This document shows positions 3,083-34,908 of a stretch of DNA of 64,000 bases, piece by piece. Source of the DNA: Streptomyces sp. CB01249 (GTDB lineage Bacteria; Actinomycetota; Actinomycetes; Streptomycetales; Streptomycetaceae); NCBI RefSeq assembly GCF_001905735.1, contig NZ_LISW01000002.1, positions 904,426-968,425 of the forward strand, given 5' to 3'. The notes under the pieces were generated by a model that had not been told where the DNA came from, ran no database searches, and saw only the letters and a program-made list of their open reading frames with translations. The position numbers and the translations under genes are program-made. The stretch's first letter is position 1. The number at the start of each line of letters is the position of its first letter.

Positions 3083-4015
3083 ATGGGGCGCTATGTCGCA
3101 CGACGACTGCTCCAGATGATCCCGGTCTTTCTCGGGACAACGCTGCTGATCTTCCTGATGGTCTACACGCTGCCCGGCGACCCCGTGCGCGGGCTCTTCG
3201 GGGACAAGGGGGCCGATCCGGCCACTCTGGAAGCGATGCGGCACAAGCTCGGACTGGACCAGCCGATTCTGGTGCAGTACTGGGACTACATGAAGGGCAT
3301 GGTCTTTCATGGGGACTTCGGCAACCAGATAGCCAGCGGACGCCCCGTCACCGACGTGCTCGGCGACGCCTTCCCGGTCACCCTGCGACTGGCGGGCATG
3401 GCGTTCGTCATCGAGATCATCCTCGGCATCGGCCTGGGCATGGTCGCGGGTCTGCGGGCCGGCCGGCTGGCCGACAACGTGGTGCTGATCCTGACGCTGC
3501 TGATCATCTCGATCCCCGTCTTCGTGCTGGCGCACATCGTGAAGTCCGTCTTCGCCGACCAGCTGGGGCTGATCTCGCCCAACGTCTCGAACGAGGCGAC
3601 CTGGAGCGAGCTACTGACCCCGGCCATCGTGCTCGGCTCGCTCTCCCTCGCGTACGTGGCGCGACTGACCCGTACGACGATGGCCGAGAACCTGCGGTCC
3701 GACTACATGCGTACGGCCGTCGCCAAGGGACTTCCCAAGAGCCGCATCATCGGTGTGCACCTGATGCGCAACTCGATGATCCCCGTCATCACCTTCCTGG
3801 GCACCGACCTGGGCGCCCTGATGGGCGGTGCGGTCGTCACCGAGTCCGTCTTCAACGTCAAGGGCATCGGCGGCACCATCGTCGAGTCGATCACCCGGCG
3901 TGAAGGCACCACCCTGGTGGGCCTCGTCACCATCCTGGTGCTCGTCTACCTGTTCATGACCCTGATCGTCGACCTGCTGTACGCGGTCCTGGACCCGAGG
4001 ATCCGTTATGCCTGA
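3083..4015 (+). CDS. peptide ABC importer permease, DppB type (locus A)
   Basis: A 310-residue inner-membrane permease. It starts MGRYVARRLLQMIPV with a first membrane helix (FLGTTLLIFLMVYTL) and has the DppB/OppB features: the periplasmic segment after helix 1, the cytoplasmic EAA loop (YMRTAVAKGLPKSR), ALMGGAVVTESVF, and the C-terminus LLYAVLDPRIRYA. The second of two adjacent ATGs is preferred because GGAGG at 3074-3078 is then 4 nt away, not 1 nt, and because the paralogue at 15751 starts with the same MGRYV. The stop overlaps the next gene by 8 nt, so translation is coupled. Confidence 0.92.
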   Translation: MGRYVARRLLQMIPVFLGTTLLIFLMVYTLPGDPVRGLFGDKGADPATLEAMRHKLGLDQPILVQYWDYMKGMVFHGDFGNQIASGRPVTDVLGDAFPVTLRLAGMAFVIEIILGIGLGMVAGLRAGRLADNVVLILTLLIISIPVFVLAHIVKSVFADQLGLISPNVSNEATWSELLTPAIVLGSLSLAYVARLTRTTMAENLRSDYMRTAVAKGLPKSRIIGVHLMRNSMIPVITFLGTDLGALMGGAVVTESVFNVKGIGGTIVESITRREGTTLVGLVTILVLVYLFMTLIVDLLYAVLDPRIRYA

Positions 4016-27626: not shown

Positions 27627-28562
27627 ATGACAACGACAGCCACCGGAGCGACCGCGACGAGGACCGCGGTGGTCAGCTTCGACCAGGTCAGCAAGGTCTA
27701 CGGGGACGTACGCGCCGTCGACGGGCTCACCCTGGACCTGCATCCCGGCGAGACCGTGGCCCTCCTCGGCCCCAACGGCGCCGGCAAGTCCTCCACCCTC
27801 GACCTCCTCCTCGGCCTGCGCACCGCCGACTCCGGCGCGGTCAGCCTCTTCGGCACCAGCCCGCAGGAGGCCATCAAGGCCGGCCGGGTCGGCGCCATGC
27901 TCCAGAGCGGCGGCCTGATGGAGGACGTCACCGTCGAGGAACTGGTCCGGCTCGCCTGCGATCTGCACCCGCGTCCCCACCCGGTCGGCGAGGTGCTGGC
28001 CCGGGCGGGCATCGCGTCGATCGCCGGCCGGATGGTCAACAAGCTCTCCGGCGGCCAGGAGCAGCGCGTACGGTTCGCGCTCGCCACCGCCGGCGCCAAC
28101 GACCTCATCGTCCTCGACGAGCCGACGACCGGCATGGACGTCACCGCCCGCCAGGCGTTCTGGGCCACCATGCGCGAGCAGGCCGAGCAGGGCCGCACCG
28201 TCCTGTTCGCCACGCACTACCTGGAAGAGGCCGACGCGATCGCCGACCGCGTCCTCGTCCTGCACAAGGGCCGCCTGCTCGCCGACGGCACCGCCGCCGA
28301 GATCAAGGCGAAGGCCGGGGCCCGCCGGATCTCCTTCGAGCTGGAGGGCGCGATCGACCAGGCCGCCCTGCGCGCCCTGCCGTTCCTCGCCTCGCTCGAC
28401 GTCAACGGCCGCCGGGTGCGCATCCAGTCCCACAACGCCGACGCGACCGTCCACGCGGTCTACGGCCTCGGCCTCTACCCGCGCGAGCTCGAAGTCGCCG
28501 GACTCGGCCTGGAGCAGGCCTTCGTCGCCATCACCGAGGCCGAGGAGGCCAAGACCTCATGA
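27627..28562 (+). CDS. ABC-2 exporter ATPase
   Basis: A 311-residue DrrA/CcmA-type ABC ATPase. Walker A is GPNGAGKS, signature LSGGQEQRVRFA, Walker B LIVLDEPTTGMD, switch FATHYLEEAD; a C-terminal domain of about 90 residues follows. It should power the ABC-2 permease encoded next, with which it overlaps by 4 nt. It has no ribosome binding site, so it may be leaderless. Four genes (ATPase, permease, kinase, regulator) overlap successively and form one operon; the substrate is not evident and may be a drug, lipid or peptide. Confidence 0.9.
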   Translation: MTTTATGATATRTAVVSFDQVSKVYGDVRAVDGLTLDLHPGETVALLGPNGAGKSSTLDLLLGLRTADSGAVSLFGTSPQEAIKAGRVGAMLQSGGLMEDVTVEELVRLACDLHPRPHPVGEVLARAGIASIAGRMVNKLSGGQEQRVRFALATAGANDLIVLDEPTTGMDVTARQAFWATMREQAEQGRTVLFATHYLEEADAIADRVLVLHKGRLLADGTAAEIKAKAGARRISFELEGAIDQAALRALPFLASLDVNGRRVRIQSHNADATVHAVYGLGLYPRELEVAGLGLEQAFVAITEAEEAKTS

Positions 28563-29299
28563 ACACGCTGATCCGGCTCGAAGTCACCCGCACCCTGCGG
28601 AACAAGAAGTTCATGTTCTTCTCGGTCATCTACCCGTCGGTGATCTACCTGCTGATCTCCGGCACCCAGAACGACACCGACAAGATCCCGCACACGGATC
28701 TGACCCTCCAGTCCTTCTTCATGGTCTCCATGGCCTCCTTCGGCGCGCTGACCGCCGTCCTCATGGGCAACAGCGAGCGCATCGCCAAGGAGCGCGAAAA
28801 GGGCTGGGTGCGCCAGCTGCGGCTGACCGCGCTGCCCGGCCGGGGCTACGTCCTCGCGAAGATCGCCAGCGCCGCCATGGTCACCCTGCCGTGCATCGTC
28901 GTGGTCTTCCTCGTCGCCGCCTCGGTCAAACACGTCCGCTTCGACCTCTGGCAGTGGTTCGCGCTGACCGGCGTCATCTGGGCCGGCTCCCTGGTCTTCG
29001 CCGCGCTCGGCGTCGCCATCGGCTACATCACCAGCGGGGACGCGGTCCGCCCGGTCACGATGATCATCTACTTCGGCCTCTCCATCCTCGGCGGCCTCTG
29101 GATGCCCAGCGCGACCTTCCCGCAGTGGCTCCAGAACATCTCCGAGTGGCTTCCCACGCACGCGTACGCTGCTCTCGGCCAGGCCGTCGAAATGGGCGGC
29201 GCGCCCCACGCCAAGGACGTCGCCGTCCTCTGCGTCTACTTCCTGCTCTTCGCGGGCGGCGCGGCCTGGCTCTACCGGAAGGACACCTTGAAGGCGTGA
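28559..29299 (+). CDS. ABC-2 exporter permease
   Basis: A 246-residue ABC-2 type membrane protein with six hydrophobic stretches, among them FMFFSVIYPSVIYLLIS, a stretch at SFGALTAVLMG, IASAAMVTLPCIVVVFLVA, WAGSLVFAALGVAIGYI, VTMIIYFGLSILGGLW and VAVLCVYFLLFAGGAAWLY. It starts MNTLIRLEVTRTLRNKK and has the ABC-2 loop around KEREKGWVRQLRLTALPG. ATGA and GTGA overlaps join it to the genes on both sides. Confidence 0.9.
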   Translation: MNTLIRLEVTRTLRNKKFMFFSVIYPSVIYLLISGTQNDTDKIPHTDLTLQSFFMVSMASFGALTAVLMGNSERIAKEREKGWVRQLRLTALPGRGYVLAKIASAAMVTLPCIVVVFLVAASVKHVRFDLWQWFALTGVIWAGSLVFAALGVAIGYITSGDAVRPVTMIIYFGLSILGGLWMPSATFPQWLQNISEWLPTHAYAALGQAVEMGGAPHAKDVAVLCVYFLLFAGGAAWLYRKDTLKA

Positions 29300-30474
29300 A
29301 CGACGACGAGATGTCGGTGGGGCTCGGGCGGCCGCCCGCGACCGCCCGGCAGGCCGGGATCAAGCTGCTGTGGATCGGGATCTGGCTCGCCTTCATGAGC
29401 GCGCCGGTCAAGGACCTCGCCGACGGCAACCACACACCGTGGGCGACCGCGCTCGGCGTCCTCGGGCTGCTGGTCTTCGTCGGCGCCTACCTGGTCCTGG
29501 TCTTCCGGCACACGTCGAAGGCGCTCGACCCCTTCCGGGTCCGGGCGTCGATCGCCTTCCTCGGGGCGGTCGCGGTGCTGATGTCGCTGACGTTCGGCAC
29601 GCCGTGGCTGGTCCTCTTCGTGTACGTGTCGGTCTCCGTCGGGGCCACGCTGCCGCTGCGGACCGCGCGCTGGCTGATCCCCGTCGTCACCGCCGTCCTG
29701 GTGGGCGTCGGGGCGACCCTGGAGGACGCGCGCGAGATCATCACCGCCCTGGTCTTCCCGGCCCTGCTGGGCGGGTTCGCGATGACGGGCGTACGGCAGT
29801 TGGTCCGCACCACGATCGAGCTGCGCCAGGCCCGGGCCACCGTCGCGCAGCTCGCCGCCAACGAGGAGCGGCTGCGCCTCGCCCGCGACCTGCACGACCT
29901 GCTCGGCCACTCCCTCTCGCTGATCACCCTCAAGAGCGAGCTGGCCGGCCGGATGCTCCCCGACCGGCCCGAGCTGGCGGCCGCCCAGGTCGCGGACATC
30001 GAACAGGTCAGCCGCCAGGCCCTGGTGGACGTACGCAGTGCCGTCACCGGATACCGCCGCCCGACGCTCCCCGGCGAACTGGCCGGGGCCCGCACCGCGC
30101 TGGCCGCCGCCGGAGTCGACGCCGACGTCCCGGCCGACGTGCCCGAGGGGCTGCCCGAGAAGGCGGAGGAGGTGCTCGCCTGGGGGCTGCGGGAGGCGGT
30201 CACCAATGTCGTACGCCACAGTGGTGCGCGCCGCTGCACGGTGACCCTGACGCCCCGCCAGACGCTGGACGGGCGAGTGCTCGAACTCACCGTCGCCGAC
30301 GACGGCCGGGGCGCCGCCGGAACCGCGCCCGGCAACGGCCTCACCGGCCTCACCGAACGCCTGGCCTCGGTGGACGGCACCCTCACCACCCGGCCCACCC
30401 ACCCCCGTTCGGGCAAAGGCTTCACCATGGTCCTCAGCGTTCCGTTCGAATCCGGCCTAGGATCCGCGGAATGA
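29296..30474 (+). CDS. sensor histidine kinase (NarL-class, DesK-like)
   Basis: A 392-residue HisKA_3 kinase. The first half has about five or six membrane helices with hardly any extracellular domain, as in DesK. The phosphoacceptor helix is ERLRLARDLHDLLGHSLS (His near residue 204), and the HATPase domain has NVVRHSGARRC (N box) and VADDGRGA (G1 box) with GNGLTGLTERL. It starts with GTG overlapping the permease stop and overlaps the regulator by 4 nt. It probably senses a membrane condition or the substrate of the linked exporter. Confidence 0.9.
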   Translation: MNDDEMSVGLGRPPATARQAGIKLLWIGIWLAFMSAPVKDLADGNHTPWATALGVLGLLVFVGAYLVLVFRHTSKALDPFRVRASIAFLGAVAVLMSLTFGTPWLVLFVYVSVSVGATLPLRTARWLIPVVTAVLVGVGATLEDAREIITALVFPALLGGFAMTGVRQLVRTTIELRQARATVAQLAANEERLRLARDLHDLLGHSLSLITLKSELAGRMLPDRPELAAAQVADIEQVSRQALVDVRSAVTGYRRPTLPGELAGARTALAAAGVDADVPADVPEGLPEKAEEVLAWGLREAVTNVVRHSGARRCTVTLTPRQTLDGRVLELTVADDGRGAAGTAPGNGLTGLTERLASVDGTLTTRPTHPRSGKGFTMVLSVPFESGLGSAE

Positions 30475-31082
30475 GCATGATCAGACTTCTCCTCGCGGAG
30501 GACCAGTCCATGGTGCGCGAGGCCCTGGCGGCGCTCCTCGGCCTGGAACCGGACATCGAGGTGGTCGCCCAGGTCGCCCGCGGCGACGAGGTCCTGGCGG
30601 CGGCCCGGGAGCACTCCGTCGACGTGGCCCTCCTGGACATCGAGATGCCCGGCATGACCGGGATCGAGGCGACGGCCCGGCTCCGCGAGACCCTGCCGGA
30701 CGTGAAGGTCGTGGTCGTCACGACGTTCGGCCGGCCCGGTTATCTGCGCCGCGCCATGGAGTCGGGCGCCGATGCCTTCCTGGTCAAGGACGCCCCCGCG
30801 TCCCAGCTCGCGGAAGCGGTACGTAAGGTGCTCGCCGGCGAACGCGTCATCGACCCCGGCCTCGCGGCCGCCGCCCTCGCCGACGGGGCGAACCCGCTGA
30901 CCGACCGCGAACGCGAGGTCCTGCGCACCGCCGCGGACGGCGCGACCAACGCGGAGATCGCCGCCTCCCTCCACCTCTCCCAGGGCACCGTCCGCAACTA
31001 CCTCTCCATGGCCATCCAGAAACTGGCCGCCCGCAACCGCGCCGAGGCGGTCCGCCTGGCACGGGAGAAGGGCTGGCTGTAG
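30471..31082 (+). CDS. LuxR/NarL family response regulator
   Basis: A 203-residue regulator. The receiver domain starts MSMIRLLLAEDQSMVREA with the phosphorylated Asp in VALLDIEMPGMTG (residue 54), the Thr in VVVTTFG, and Lys in FLVKDAPAS. The LuxR HTH follows (NPLTDREREVLRTAADGATNAEIAASL, shown in part). ATGA overlap couples it to the kinase. It probably controls its own operon through the palindrome at 27554-27567. Confidence 0.92.
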   Translation: MSMIRLLLAEDQSMVREALAALLGLEPDIEVVAQVARGDEVLAAAREHSVDVALLDIEMPGMTGIEATARLRETLPDVKVVVVTTFGRPGYLRRAMESGADAFLVKDAPASQLAEAVRKVLAGERVIDPGLAAAALADGANPLTDREREVLRTAADGATNAEIAASLHLSQGTVRNYLSMAIQKLAARNRAEAVRLAREKGWL

Positions 31083-31321: not shown

Positions 31322-32251
31322 TTACGCGCCCGGCGTGCCGAAGTAGTGCCCCTGGTCCAGGTCCTCGATGAGCCCGGGTCCGGTCGGCTTCCAGCCGAAG
31401 CGTTCGCGGGTCAGGGCGCTGGAGGCGGGCGAGTCGAGGCTCACCATCCCGGCCAGCCAGCCGAAGTGGCCGGGCGCGTCCTCGGGGGTGACGGAGGCCG
31501 TGGGGACGCCGAGGTGGCGGCCGATGGTCTCGGCGACGGAGCGCAGCACGACGCCTTTCTCGGCCGCCGCGTGCAGCGTGGTGCCGGCGGGGGCCTGCTC
31601 CAGGGCCAGCCGGAACAGGTGCGCGACGTCCTCGCGGTGGGCGGCCGGCCAGCGCTGGGAGCCGTCGCCGATGTAACCGGAGACGCCCTTGGCGCGGGCG
31701 GTGGCGACGAGCGAGGCCACGAAGCCCTGGTCCCCGTCGCCGTGGACCGTCGGGGGCAGCCGGACGACGGACGAGCGGACGTCGCGGGAGGCGAGGGCGA
31801 TCGTCGCCCGCGCGTTGTCCTGGCGTCCGCCCGGGCCGCCGGCCGGCGCGTCCGGATCGGCGCTCCGCCCGTCCTCCTCGGTCGCGACCCGGCCGGGGGC
31901 CAGCCCGAGGAGCCCGGAGGCGATGACGAAGGGCTTGCCGGACCCGGCGAGCGCGTCCCCGAAGGCGTCGATGGCCTTCCGGTCCGCTTCGGTGGCGCCC
32001 TGGAAGTCCCCGGAGAACGCGATGTCGTGCTTGAACGCGAGGTGGAGCACCCCGTCCGCGTCGGCGGCGGCCTCGCGCAGCACGTCCAGGTCGTCCAGCG
32101 ATCCGCGTCGCACCTCGGCCCCGGCGGCGGCCAGCGCCTCGGCCGAGGCATCCGAACGGGCGAGCCCGACAACCTGGTGACCTGCCCCGATGAGCTCGGG
32201 AACGACGGCGGAACCGATCCAGCCGGACGCGCCGGTGATGAATACACGCAT
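31322..32251 (-). CDS. NAD(P)-dependent epimerase/reductase (extended SDR-like)
   Basis: A 309-residue Rossmann-fold enzyme. It starts MRVFITGASGWIGSAVVPEL with the nucleotide motif GASGWIG. ADGVLHLAFKHD and an upstream-looking substrate domain (KPFVIASGLLG, SSVVRLPPTVHG) fit the epimerase/dehydratase family, but the usual YxxxK pair is not obvious, so the activity may be a reductase or an atypical SDR. AGGAGG lies just upstream of the ATG. It is divergent from a TetR gene with two palindromic operators between, and is very likely that regulator's target. Confidence 0.85.
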   Translation of the reverse strand: MRVFITGASGWIGSAVVPELIGAGHQVVGLARSDASAEALAAAGAEVRRGSLDDLDVLREAAADADGVLHLAFKHDIAFSGDFQGATEADRKAIDAFGDALAGSGKPFVIASGLLGLAPGRVATEEDGRSADPDAPAGGPGGRQDNARATIALASRDVRSSVVRLPPTVHGDGDQGFVASLVATARAKGVSGYIGDGSQRWPAAHREDVAHLFRLALEQAPAGTTLHAAAEKGVVLRSVAETIGRHLGVPTASVTPEDAPGHFGWLAGMVSLDSPASSALTRERFGWKPTGPGLIEDLDQGHYFGTPGA

Positions 32252-32309
32252 GAGGAAACCTCCTGGAACAGGCTGACGATCCGGGCGGCGGGAACGCTGC
32301 CGGACCCCT

Positions 32310-32358
32310 GATGTCAGCGACTGTCATCAGCCTACTCCCGATGTCAGTGACTGTCATC
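32310..32358 (+). promoter_or_regulatory. two 19-bp TetR operators, 30 bp apart
   Basis: GATGTCAGCGACTGTCATC (32310-32328) and GATGTCAGTGACTGTCATC (32340-32358) differ at one base and are each imperfect palindromes (GATGnCAGTnACTGnCATC). The 30-bp spacing is close to three helical turns. They fill the gap between the divergent epimerase and TetR genes and run up to the regulator's -10 (TAGACT, 32362-32367). Confidence 0.8.
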
Positions 32359-32373
32359 CCATAGACTCGCCGT

Positions 32374-32946
32374 ATGGGTCGATGGGAGCCGAACGCACGC
32401 GGCAGGCTGGAGCAGGCCGCCATGGAGCTCTACGCCGAGCGGGGTTACGAGCAGACGACCGTGACCGAGATCGCGAAGCGGGCCGGGCTCACGGAGCGCA
32501 CGTTCTTCCGGCACTACGCGGACAAGCGCGAGGTGCTGTTCGCGGGCTCCGCCCTGCTCCAGGAACGCATGGTGAGCGCCCTCGACGGTGCGCCCCCGTC
32601 CGCGCCCCCGATCGACGCGGTGGCGGCGGCGCTCCAGGCGGCCGCGGCCGTGCTGGACGAGCGGCATCCGCAGGCGATGCAGCGGCAGCGGATCATCACG
32701 GCCAACGCGGAGCTCCAGGAACGCGAGCTGGTCAAGCTCGCGTCCCTCGCCTCGGCGATGGGGGAGGCCCTGCGGGCACGCGGCATCAGCGAACCGGCGG
32801 CGAGCCTGGCGGCCGAGGCGGGCATCGCCGTCTTCAAGGTCGCCTTCGTGCGCTGGATCGACACCACCGGGGTGCGCGGCCTGGGCGCGTTCGTCCTGGA
32901 GGGTCTCGCCGGACTCGAATCCCTGATGGCGGGCGGCCGCCCCTGA
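32374..32946 (+). CDS. TetR family regulator
   Basis: A 190-residue repressor. The N-terminal HTH is ARGRLEQAAMELYAERGYEQ-like sequence followed by VTEIAKRAGLTERTFFRHY, the standard TetR helix pair; the C-terminal ligand domain is Ala-rich. TAGACT lies 6 nt before the ATG with no ribosome binding site, so the message is probably leaderless. The two operator palindromes just upstream would give autorepression and control of the divergent epimerase gene. The inducer is unknown. Confidence 0.9.
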   Translation: MGRWEPNARGRLEQAAMELYAERGYEQTTVTEIAKRAGLTERTFFRHYADKREVLFAGSALLQERMVSALDGAPPSAPPIDAVAAALQAAAAVLDERHPQAMQRQRIITANAELQERELVKLASLASAMGEALRARGISEPAASLAAEAGIAVFKVAFVRWIDTTGVRGLGAFVLEGLAGLESLMAGGRP

Positions 32947-33033: not shown

Positions 33034-34848
33034 CTACGGGAAGGACACGACCTGGGACGGGACGGTCTCCGTACCCGAGGTCGGCGAACCCGTGTCGTTG
33101 ATGACGTGGTTGTACTGGCCCTGGCCGCCGAGCGAGACGACGATCAGGTCGTGGAACTTCACGCCGGCCTTGACCGGGGCCTCGAAGCCGTGGTCCTGGC
33201 GGATGCTCGGGTCGACGTTGAAGTAGCAGTAGCTGCCGAGCCCCCAGCCCTCGTGCGTGTTGACCGAGTCGTCCACCTTGTAGGCCGCGAAGCCCTTGAC
33301 GTCACCGTTCTGGACGGCGTCCTGATTCGGCGCGTCGTAGGCCTTCTCGTTCTGGAAGAAGATCGTCTTGCCGTTCTCGCCGGACCAGCGGACGTCGTAC
33401 TTGTTGAAGTGCTCGACGAAGAGTCCCGTGGCCAGGACGTTGTCGCCGTTGACCTGGAGGCCGTAGTCGGAGCGGTTGGTCTCCCAGCCGATGCCCTCGC
33501 CGTGGTCGGCGCGCCACAGCCAGGTGTGGTCGATGATCGTGTCGTTGCTGTTGATCACCATGCCCGTGGTCGCCTTGCCGGCGCCCGCGCCGCCGACCCG
33601 GACGAACACGTCCTGGACGCTGGTCGGGTTGTCCGCGTGGCTCGCGGACGCACCCTCGGGGCCGACCTCGACCAGGGTGTCGCTGTTGGTGGTGCCGGCG
33701 TCGATGAGCAGCCCGGCCAGCTTCACGCCGTCCACGTCACCGACCTTGAGGGCGGTGACCCCGTTGTCCGGGATGATCGTGGCCAGGCCGAGGCCCAGCA
33801 CGACCGTGTTGGCGCGGTCGATGTTGATCGTCTGGTCGACGTGGTAGATCCCCGGCGTGAACAGCAGGTGCAGGCCCTGGTCCACCGCGGCGTTGATCGT
33901 CTCCGCGCTCGCGCCCGGCTTCACCACGTAGAACTGGTCGAGCGGGATGGACTCGCCCTGCGGGGTGACGTTGGCCCAGGAGACGCCGCGCGCGTTGGTG
34001 CGCTTGGCGGGGACGAACACCTTGTAGTCGTCGCCGTCCAGGTAGAGGAACGGCTTCTCGCGGGAGACCGGGGTGTTTTCGAGGGTGGTGTACGGCGGCT
34101 CGGGGAAGCTCTGCGCCGGAGCACCCTCGACACCCGAGAACGTCATGTTCCAGACGCCGTTGCCCCAGCTGCCGATGGAACTGTCGCGGGTGTACCACTG
34201 CTGCTGCGAGTACGGTCCGACCTGCCCGTCGATCTTGCTGTCGGCGATGTACCCGCCGCTCGCCCAGCCGTACCCGTCGGGGGCGAGGTTGAGGCCGCCC
34301 TTGACGTGCATCCGGCGGAACGGAGCGGCCTGCGAGACGGCCCAGCGGTCGGTGCCGTTGACCGGGTTCAGCGCCAGGTTCTCCGCCGAACGCCAGAAGT
34401 TCTGCGTGGCGTTGCCGTTGAACCAGCCCGCGTCCACGGTGACATCACCGTTGAACGTGGTGTCGTCGGGGTTCAGCCCGAGACCAGCGATCGACGTGTA
34501 GAAGCCGATCTGCGCGTTGATGTTGTCGTACGTGCCCGGCTTGAACATCAGCGCATAGCGGCCGTCGCCGAACTGCGCCGACTCCTGCTTCTTGAAGACC
34601 TCGTCGACCTTGGCCTGGATGTCCGGCGTCGACGGGTCGAACACCATGACGTTGGGCCCGAGATCGCCGCCGCCCTCGACGGCCTGCGCGTCCTGCCCGA
34701 AGGCGGTCTGCGCCGTGGGGACGGCCATGAGCAGCGACACGGCGAACGCGGCGAACCCGAAGGTCCTGCCCCGGCGCCTGCGGCGGGAGGGTGCGGTGGA
34801 GGTGGGTGTGGGGGGTGTGGTGGGGGCTTCCGTGGGGGGAAGGTGCAT
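33034..34848 (-). CDS. secreted right-handed beta-helix protein (GH55/pectate-lyase-like)
   Basis: A 604-residue exported protein. Its signal peptide has a long n-region with an Arg cluster (SRRRRRGRTFG) and the hydrophobic core FAAFAVSLLMAVPTA. The mature part has two halves of beta-helix repeats: NVMVFDPSTPDIQAKVDEVF, then a second half from FYVVKPGASAETINAAVDQG through DNVLATGLFVEHFNKYD. That two-lobed layout resembles GH55 exo-beta-1,3-glucanases, but I cannot confirm the catalytic residues; relatives are often labelled adenylyl cyclase or coagulation-factor-like without evidence. A LacI-type operator upstream favours a polysaccharide target. Confidence 0.65.
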   Translation of the reverse strand: MHLPPTEAPTTPPTPTSTAPSRRRRRGRTFGFAAFAVSLLMAVPTAQTAFGQDAQAVEGGGDLGPNVMVFDPSTPDIQAKVDEVFKKQESAQFGDGRYALMFKPGTYDNINAQIGFYTSIAGLGLNPDDTTFNGDVTVDAGWFNGNATQNFWRSAENLALNPVNGTDRWAVSQAAPFRRMHVKGGLNLAPDGYGWASGGYIADSKIDGQVGPYSQQQWYTRDSSIGSWGNGVWNMTFSGVEGAPAQSFPEPPYTTLENTPVSREKPFLYLDGDDYKVFVPAKRTNARGVSWANVTPQGESIPLDQFYVVKPGASAETINAAVDQGLHLLFTPGIYHVDQTINIDRANTVVLGLGLATIIPDNGVTALKVGDVDGVKLAGLLIDAGTTNSDTLVEVGPEGASASHADNPTSVQDVFVRVGGAGAGKATTGMVINSNDTIIDHTWLWRADHGEGIGWETNRSDYGLQVNGDNVLATGLFVEHFNKYDVRWSGENGKTIFFQNEKAYDAPNQDAVQNGDVKGFAAYKVDDSVNTHEGWGLGSYCYFNVDPSIRQDHGFEAPVKAGVKFHDLIVVSLGGQGQYNHVINDTGSPTSGTETVPSQVVSFP

Positions 34849-34908
34849 GGACGTACGTCTCCTGGGTCTTGGTGCGGGTGACGCGACGAACGGTCCGGTG
34901 AACACTCA

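Follow-up and report, generated by a model that had tools for sequence, protein, structure and literature searches.

In the window, i.e. the whole 64,000-nucleotide stretch of Streptomyces sp. CB01249 DNA that we analysed, an intergenic gap of 122 bp separates a minus-strand SDR gene from a plus-strand gene of the TetR family and holds two palindromes, O1 and O2 (Table 1). Judging from their uniqueness in the genome, their conservation and the covariation of their letters with residues of the repressor, these are very probably the operators of the adjacent TetR protein, as the sequence-only reading had proposed. We place high confidence in the model as a whole, a self-regulated TetR/SDR switch that would be built like that of Tn10 tet. 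For the TetR subfamily at large, our data argue for a collinear code, which we consider likely, whereby the letters at half-site positions 4, 6 and 8 follow from residues 46, 42 and 41; specificity would have been switched several times with the twin layout being kept.

Table 1 Features of the divergent TetR/SDR locus in the window, and loci of the split form in other genomes
Feature	Position or loci	Strand	Sequence or domains	Basis and remarks
Atypical SDR / NAD-dependent epimerase-like protein, 309 aa	31322-32251	-	TGASGWIG, no YxxxK	Epimerase PF01370 match
Shine-Dalgarno of SDR gene	32259-32264	-	AGGAGG	sequence; 7 bases upstream of SDR ATG
Operator O1, SDR-proximal	32310-32328	.	GATGTCAGCGACTGTCATC	19-bp imperfect palindrome
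Predicted -10 of SDR gene	32329-32334	-	TAGGCT	sequence; between O1 and O2; conserved spacer
Operator O2, TetR-proximal	32340-32358	.	GATGTCAGTGACTGTCATC	19-bp palindrome
Putative -35 of SDR gene	32352-32357	-	ATGACA	by inference; inside O2 outer arm; 17-bp spacer
Predicted -10 of TetR gene	32362-32367	+	TAGACT	sequence; conserved TAnnnT; ends 6 bases before ATG at 32374
TetR-family repressor, 190 aa	32374-32946	+	TetR_N + TetR_C_14	Pfam; recognition helix predicted at residues 41-47
Split-form loci	L033, L226, L227, L220, L156-L159			genomes G118, G246, G190, G215

Twin palindromes, predicted promoters and the two proteins

Two near-identical 19-bp palindromes, 30 bp apart and with one mismatch, had been described previously, and we reproduced both the coordinates and the single difference, which falls at position 9. 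The 30 bp are counted from start to start and leave a gap of 11 bp. Symmetric pairing is found at 8 of 9 positions in O2 and at 7 of 9 in O1, position 5 being a free N in the motif of the sequence-only reading. Scanning the window with up to three mismatches returned two motif matches, against a mean of 0.09 after shuffling, and none of 100 shuffles held two. The genome (7,636,948 bases) contains ten sites at up to three mismatches, namely O1 and O2 (0 and 1 mismatches) and eight sites at 3; a reversed pattern, serving as control, gave three. The genome search that had been suggested to define the regulon thus returned the O1/O2 pair as the only sites at up to two mismatches in 7.64 Mb. All eight 3-mismatch sites lie within open frames of high GC3, although high GC3 does not prove coding, and one of them (L176) is 8 bases from its frame edge and could be intergenic. 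A larger regulon was rejected, given the lack of any other site at up to two mismatches and the placement of these eight, one of them borderline. Downstream of the SDR gene, and on the strand opposite to it, the window encodes an ABC transporter ATPase, a histidine kinase and a LuxR-type response regulator (27627-31082), and this region holds no motif match at up to three mismatches. A long minus-strand frame at 33034-34905 (623 aa) also caught our attention; neither Pfam nor NCBIfam gave a match to it at E 0.001.

On the TetR side, the predicted -10 is separated from O2 by a gap of 3 bases, which agrees with the earlier description of a -10 abutting the operator. With the ATG set as +1, O2 spans positions -34 to -16 of the TetR promoter. 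A TAnnnT hexamer begins at -12 (83 loci) or -13 (60 loci) from the TetR ATG in 143 of 146 E41-class loci, compared to 5% of shuffled flanks; in the remaining loci it begins at -14 (2 loci) or is lacking (1 locus). Six bases from the -10 to the ATG imply a leaderless message, and the TetR transcript is thus probably leaderless, as had been suspected. On the SDR strand, a TA-type -10 between the operators lies 17 or 18 bp from O2 positions 2-7 (ATGACA type) in 115 of 128 loci, a set comprising the loci with an SDR gene and an operator spacing of 28-36 bp. Reading TAGGCT (32334-32329) together with ATGACA (32357-32352) places the SDR start near 32322, inside O1, so that O1 is predicted to cover the start of SDR transcription. 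A strict sigma-70 scan of 32200-32450 found no promoter, and both promoters therefore stand as predictions from conservation. With promoters predicted in this way, O1 and O2 would overlap both of them, in agreement with the claim that the operators occupy the divergent promoter region.

The repressor scores above threshold for the TetR_N helix-turn-helix (51.8 bits; Pfam cut-off 24) and passes for TetR_C_14, the C-terminal domain that it has in common with the mycofactocin regulator MftR (26 bits; cut-off 22.7). It was rejected as an MftR itself, since its score of 76.6 for NCBIfam TIGR03968 is far below the cut-off of 224.9. An AlphaFold2 model predicts an all-helical protein of ten helices (mean pLDDT 90.4), in which residues 41, 42 and 46 would sit on the helix formed by residues 41-47. 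The closest solved sequence is PDB 2dg7, a putative transcriptional regulator (E 9.4e-40).

The divergent gene had been called an epimerase; its orientation relative to the TetR gene stands, while the name is a Pfam label only, the protein being an SDR relative without YxxxK. It carries the TGxxGxxG nucleotide-binding motif, and in an alignment of the window protein with 116 relatives residues T6, G7, G10 and G13 are each conserved to at least 97%. In the same alignment, E125 and R143 are invariant after rounding, with column 143 being Arg at a rounded 100%. The catalytic pair YxxxK is absent throughout the window protein. An SDR with the nucleotide-binding motif and lacking YxxxK may use an unusual active site or serve a function other than catalysis. 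Its best solved match is 8rdg (E 1.3e-8).

Recurrence of the arrangement in other genomes

A TetR scan of genome contigs confirmed 403 relatives, of which the best 80 were used for the following counts. In the 200 bp ahead of the TetR start, two sites with up to four mismatches were found in 74 loci, three in 4 and one in 2; at up to two mismatches, 68 loci held two sites, 7 held one, 3 held three and 2 held none. Among these best 80 of 403 loci, successive sites are spaced by 30-33 bp in 76 of 82 cases, the proximal site begins at -33 to -38 in 78 and a divergent SDR gene is present in 74. The twin-operator layout extends to Variovorax (L182, L183) and Deinococcus (L184, L185). Nostoc (L186) and Sinorhizobium (L187) share it but have altered half-sites, and at the Sinorhizobium locus an SDR relative was looked for and not found. 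On sequence grounds, the TetR/twin-site arrangement is thus one that recurs across several bacterial phyla.

In relatives without this SDR, the divergent frames include zinc-type quinone/alcohol dehydrogenases, F420-dependent oxidoreductases and classical SDRs, as judged by eye and from annotations. This TetR subfamily therefore seems often to govern small oxidoreductases. A redox or detoxification role would be the natural guess for the TetR/SDR pair. A second, tandem TetR paralogue lies downstream in L050 (2935-5251), preceded by its own related site pair (2 and 3 mismatches) 31 bp apart. Further motif copies are present upstream and past the TetR 3' end in two mycobacterial loci (L101 at 2641-2689 and 3665-3683; L080 at 2716 and 3665), both of which have no SDR relative; other targets are possible there.

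Co-occurrence was assessed in 295 genomes of the genus, with the motif cut at up to one mismatch (62 genomes) and the TetR cut at E <= 3e-55, a value chosen after inspecting the hit list, which retains 59 genomes (86 at 1e-40). Motif and TetR were both present in 54 genomes and both absent in 228, with the motif alone in 8 and the TetR alone in 5. Among the motif-only genomes, G010 has a TetR of 53% identity adjoining the sites. G136 (L162) combines the SDR gene with twin sites, i.e. an orphaned operator pair, and a close TetR was not found in this genome (best 37% identity). The other motif-only genomes (G079, G091, G137, G140, G168 and G235) contain isolated sites, and the locus examined (~3 kb or less) has no TetR gene and no SDR gene. 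Of the TetR-only genomes, G190, G215 and G246 possess twin 2-mismatch sites at a distant SDR gene, and in G112 and G150 residue 41 is non-acidic and the sites are variant.

A split form of the locus occurs in G118, G190, G215 and G246 (Table 1). At the SDR gene of these four genomes lie two sites spaced by 32 bp, and the 3-kb locus contains no TetR; the TetR gene sits elsewhere in the same genome with a single degenerate site of 3-4 mismatches. The split loci support an SDR promoter that is covered twice and a TetR promoter that is covered once. They point to the pair of sites acting on the enzyme promoter, and to one degenerate site being what remains at the gene of the regulator itself.

Covariation of repressor residues and operator positions

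The TetR loci assembled for this analysis numbered 219 after removal of redundancy, each with 110 bp or more of upstream sequence; a divergent SDR gene is present in 172. Operators were called by a rule that seeks pairs of similar palindromes without preference at half-site positions 5-9, employing filters for palindromy (at least 6), similarity (at least 12) and the outer part (at least 3 of GATG). The rule kept 183 loci and dropped 36. Residue 41 fits position 8 in all 183 loci with detected operators: acidic residues go with G8 (147/147), non-acidic ones with C or T (36/36). Likewise, R42 accompanies C6 (162/162) and S or A at residue 42 accompanies G6 (21/21), and T4 is found in the five loci that have N or H at residue 46.

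A ranking of residues served as the control for shared ancestry. Without supervision, normalised mutual information over residues 2-164 (163 residues) gave residues 46, 42 and 41 as the best predictors of positions 4, 6 and 8, respectively. When position 8 is scored as G or not, E41 alone makes one error, the Asp, and none if E and D are pooled; by the same scoring, the best residue from 61 on, i.e. beyond the DNA-binding domain, makes 19. With all residue types left free, the best listed residue outside this domain is 152 with 14 errors. For position 6, residue 42 makes no error and residue 152, with seven states, makes one. For position 4, where the baseline is 6 errors, residue 46 makes one and residues 6 and 154 two each. 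As the errors of these rival residues are near those of 42 and 46, positions 6 and 4 are less cleanly separated from shared ancestry. The predicted link between residue 41 and position 8 is thus firm, and those for positions 6 and 4 are less so. In a phylogeny constructed with the DNA-binding domain left out, we counted 10 changes for residue 41 and likewise for position 8, and a single change for residue 42 and for position 6; the well-supported branches carry only one contrast of each kind.

With the operator rule and the code fixed, we then examined 40 further loci, of which 39 were usable, 25 with operators and 14 without a pair. The prediction held for position 8 in 24 of the 25 and for position 6 in all 25, residue 46 being invariant in these loci. 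The one miss at position 8 (L303) is a two-two tie. Among the loci without a pair in the first and the later set, many hold single, triple or variant sites by eye. No site was seen by eye in the 95 bases inspected at L301, L302, L306 and L309, though residues 41, 42 and 46 are E, R and R. Five further loci (L320, L327, L328, L331 and L336) show by eye variant or overlapping sites with altered outer half-sites, residue 46 being still Arg. In contrast to the window TetR, 2dg7 has an Arg at residue 41, so that by the rule its sites should not have G at position 8. Compared by eye with the alignment, L217 looks like a close relative of 2dg7; it has two GATGNCNC-type sites, also by eye, at a locus rejected by the operator rule. 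An identification of 2dg7 as SCO0332 was dropped, as the available part of PMC7988172 assigns 2ZB9 to SCO0332. The covariation rule was not found in a search of open-licence literature that is far from complete.

Model of the switch, competing explanations and known systems

In our model, one TetR dimer would bind each 19-bp palindrome. The dimer on O2 would block its own leaderless promoter together with the putative SDR -35, and the dimer on O1 would cover the SDR start site, placing SDR under two sites and tetR under one. Release of the repressor would come about through a small molecule, for which a substrate of the oxidoreductase is a plausible candidate. What we read from the DNA are the sites and their conservation, a geometry like that of promoters, the covariation of protein and site, and the genome uniqueness at up to two mismatches; what we infer is that TetR binds this DNA and represses, and with it the promoters, a ligand and the part played by the enzyme.

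The residues of TetR itself predict the letters of the sites, and motif and TetR co-occur across genomes. Both observations make it very improbable that the sites belong to a different regulator, with the TetR gene as a bystander, even if such a reading would fit G136, where twin sites are kept at the SDR gene though no close TetR was found. We give even less credence to a reading in which the repeats are not protein sites but features of a promoter, an RNA or a repeat element. An arm of O2 does double as a putative -35, as this would have it, but the repeats are palindromic, altered in step with the protein and retained at the SDR gene when the TetR gene relocates.

Even with TetR dimers on both operators, as we favour, it appears doubtful that the two would bind cooperatively on one DNA face and that this accounts for the conserved spacing. 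The sequence-only reading had placed them on the same helical face and seen in this a sign of cooperative repression. With 10.5 bp to the turn, a spacing of 30 bp comes to 2.86 turns; the shared face thus holds only approximately, and cooperative repression is not supported as stated, since dimers on the same face are compatible with cooperativity and do not show it. In its favour, 134 of 146 E41-class loci have a spacing of 30-34 bp, close to three turns, and 5 of 146 have one of 42-44 bp, close to four. Among these five, however, only L045 and L111 are simple pairs, and L171, L236 and L283 have by eye also an overlapping inner site ~13 bp nearer. A Streptomyces precedent exists in the TetR protein CalR3, whose site I needs site II according to the part of PMC5712553 available to us. 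The twin operators of Tn10, the nearest counterpart that has been characterised, are on the other hand reported as bound without cooperativity in the accessible text of PMC3037858, and the excerpt of PMC11686294 has it that the protein 'binds independently'. The full range of spacings among E41-class loci is 25 to 44 bp and includes the out-of-phase pairs of L163 (36 bp) and L192 (39 bp). Moreover, the distances from O2 to the -10 and from the -10 to O1 do not compensate each other (rho +0.23, n=113), so that total spacing seems not to be the thing kept and a spacing maintained by compensation was rejected. Promoter geometry alone can explain the spacing.

The operators of Tn10 tet are spaced in a near-identical manner to O1 and O2. 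As in tetR-tetA, where the operators overlap the promoters, two palindromic operators lie between a divergent TetR-family repressor and its target, and they would overlap the promoters predicted here. In the available portion of PMC3037858, tetO1 is described as shutting both genes and tetO2 as blocking tetA and merely lowering tetR; our predicted layout is alike in this asymmetry, with the target promoter covered twice and the repressor promoter once. The Tn10 operators are given as 15-bp palindromes in the part of PMC3511530 at hand, and tetO2 is drawn with 19 bases in that of PMC11686294. The two systems differ in their target, which is an efflux pump in Tn10 tet and an SDR relative here, and in operator sequence; they presumably differ in ligand, and the tetR start is predicted to be leaderless here.

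Among the divergent TetR neighbours surveyed in Streptomyces by Ahn et al. 2012, 154 of 250 encode enzymes, of which 91 are predicted oxidoreductases, 51 of these 91 with a Rossmann fold (PMC3511530, as far as accessible). The window pair belongs to this common divergent TetR/oxidoreductase type. Most of the seven footprinted regulators there, except SCO3367, are unlike the two-region pattern of TetR. The window pair is not named in the available part of PMC3511530, nor does 'epimerase' occur in its main text there. Among the titles and abstract beginnings listed in searches of open-licence literature, none named the TetR/SDR pair or its operator, and the operator core strings gave only unrelated papers. 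With TetR-oxidoreductase pairs being common in Streptomyces (PMC3511530, in part) and twin operators being classical, this kind of system is thus already known, and the recognition code is the interesting part. Taken together, a widespread TetR-oxidoreductase pair, of which we found no characterisation in this literature, gains a defined operator along with a map of its predicted promoters and an explicit rule linking repressor to site. If the code holds true, the switches of specificity under a constant layout would make operators readable from the protein sequence; the rule would then allow operator prediction for relatives, and orthogonal repressor-operator pairs could be picked from nature.
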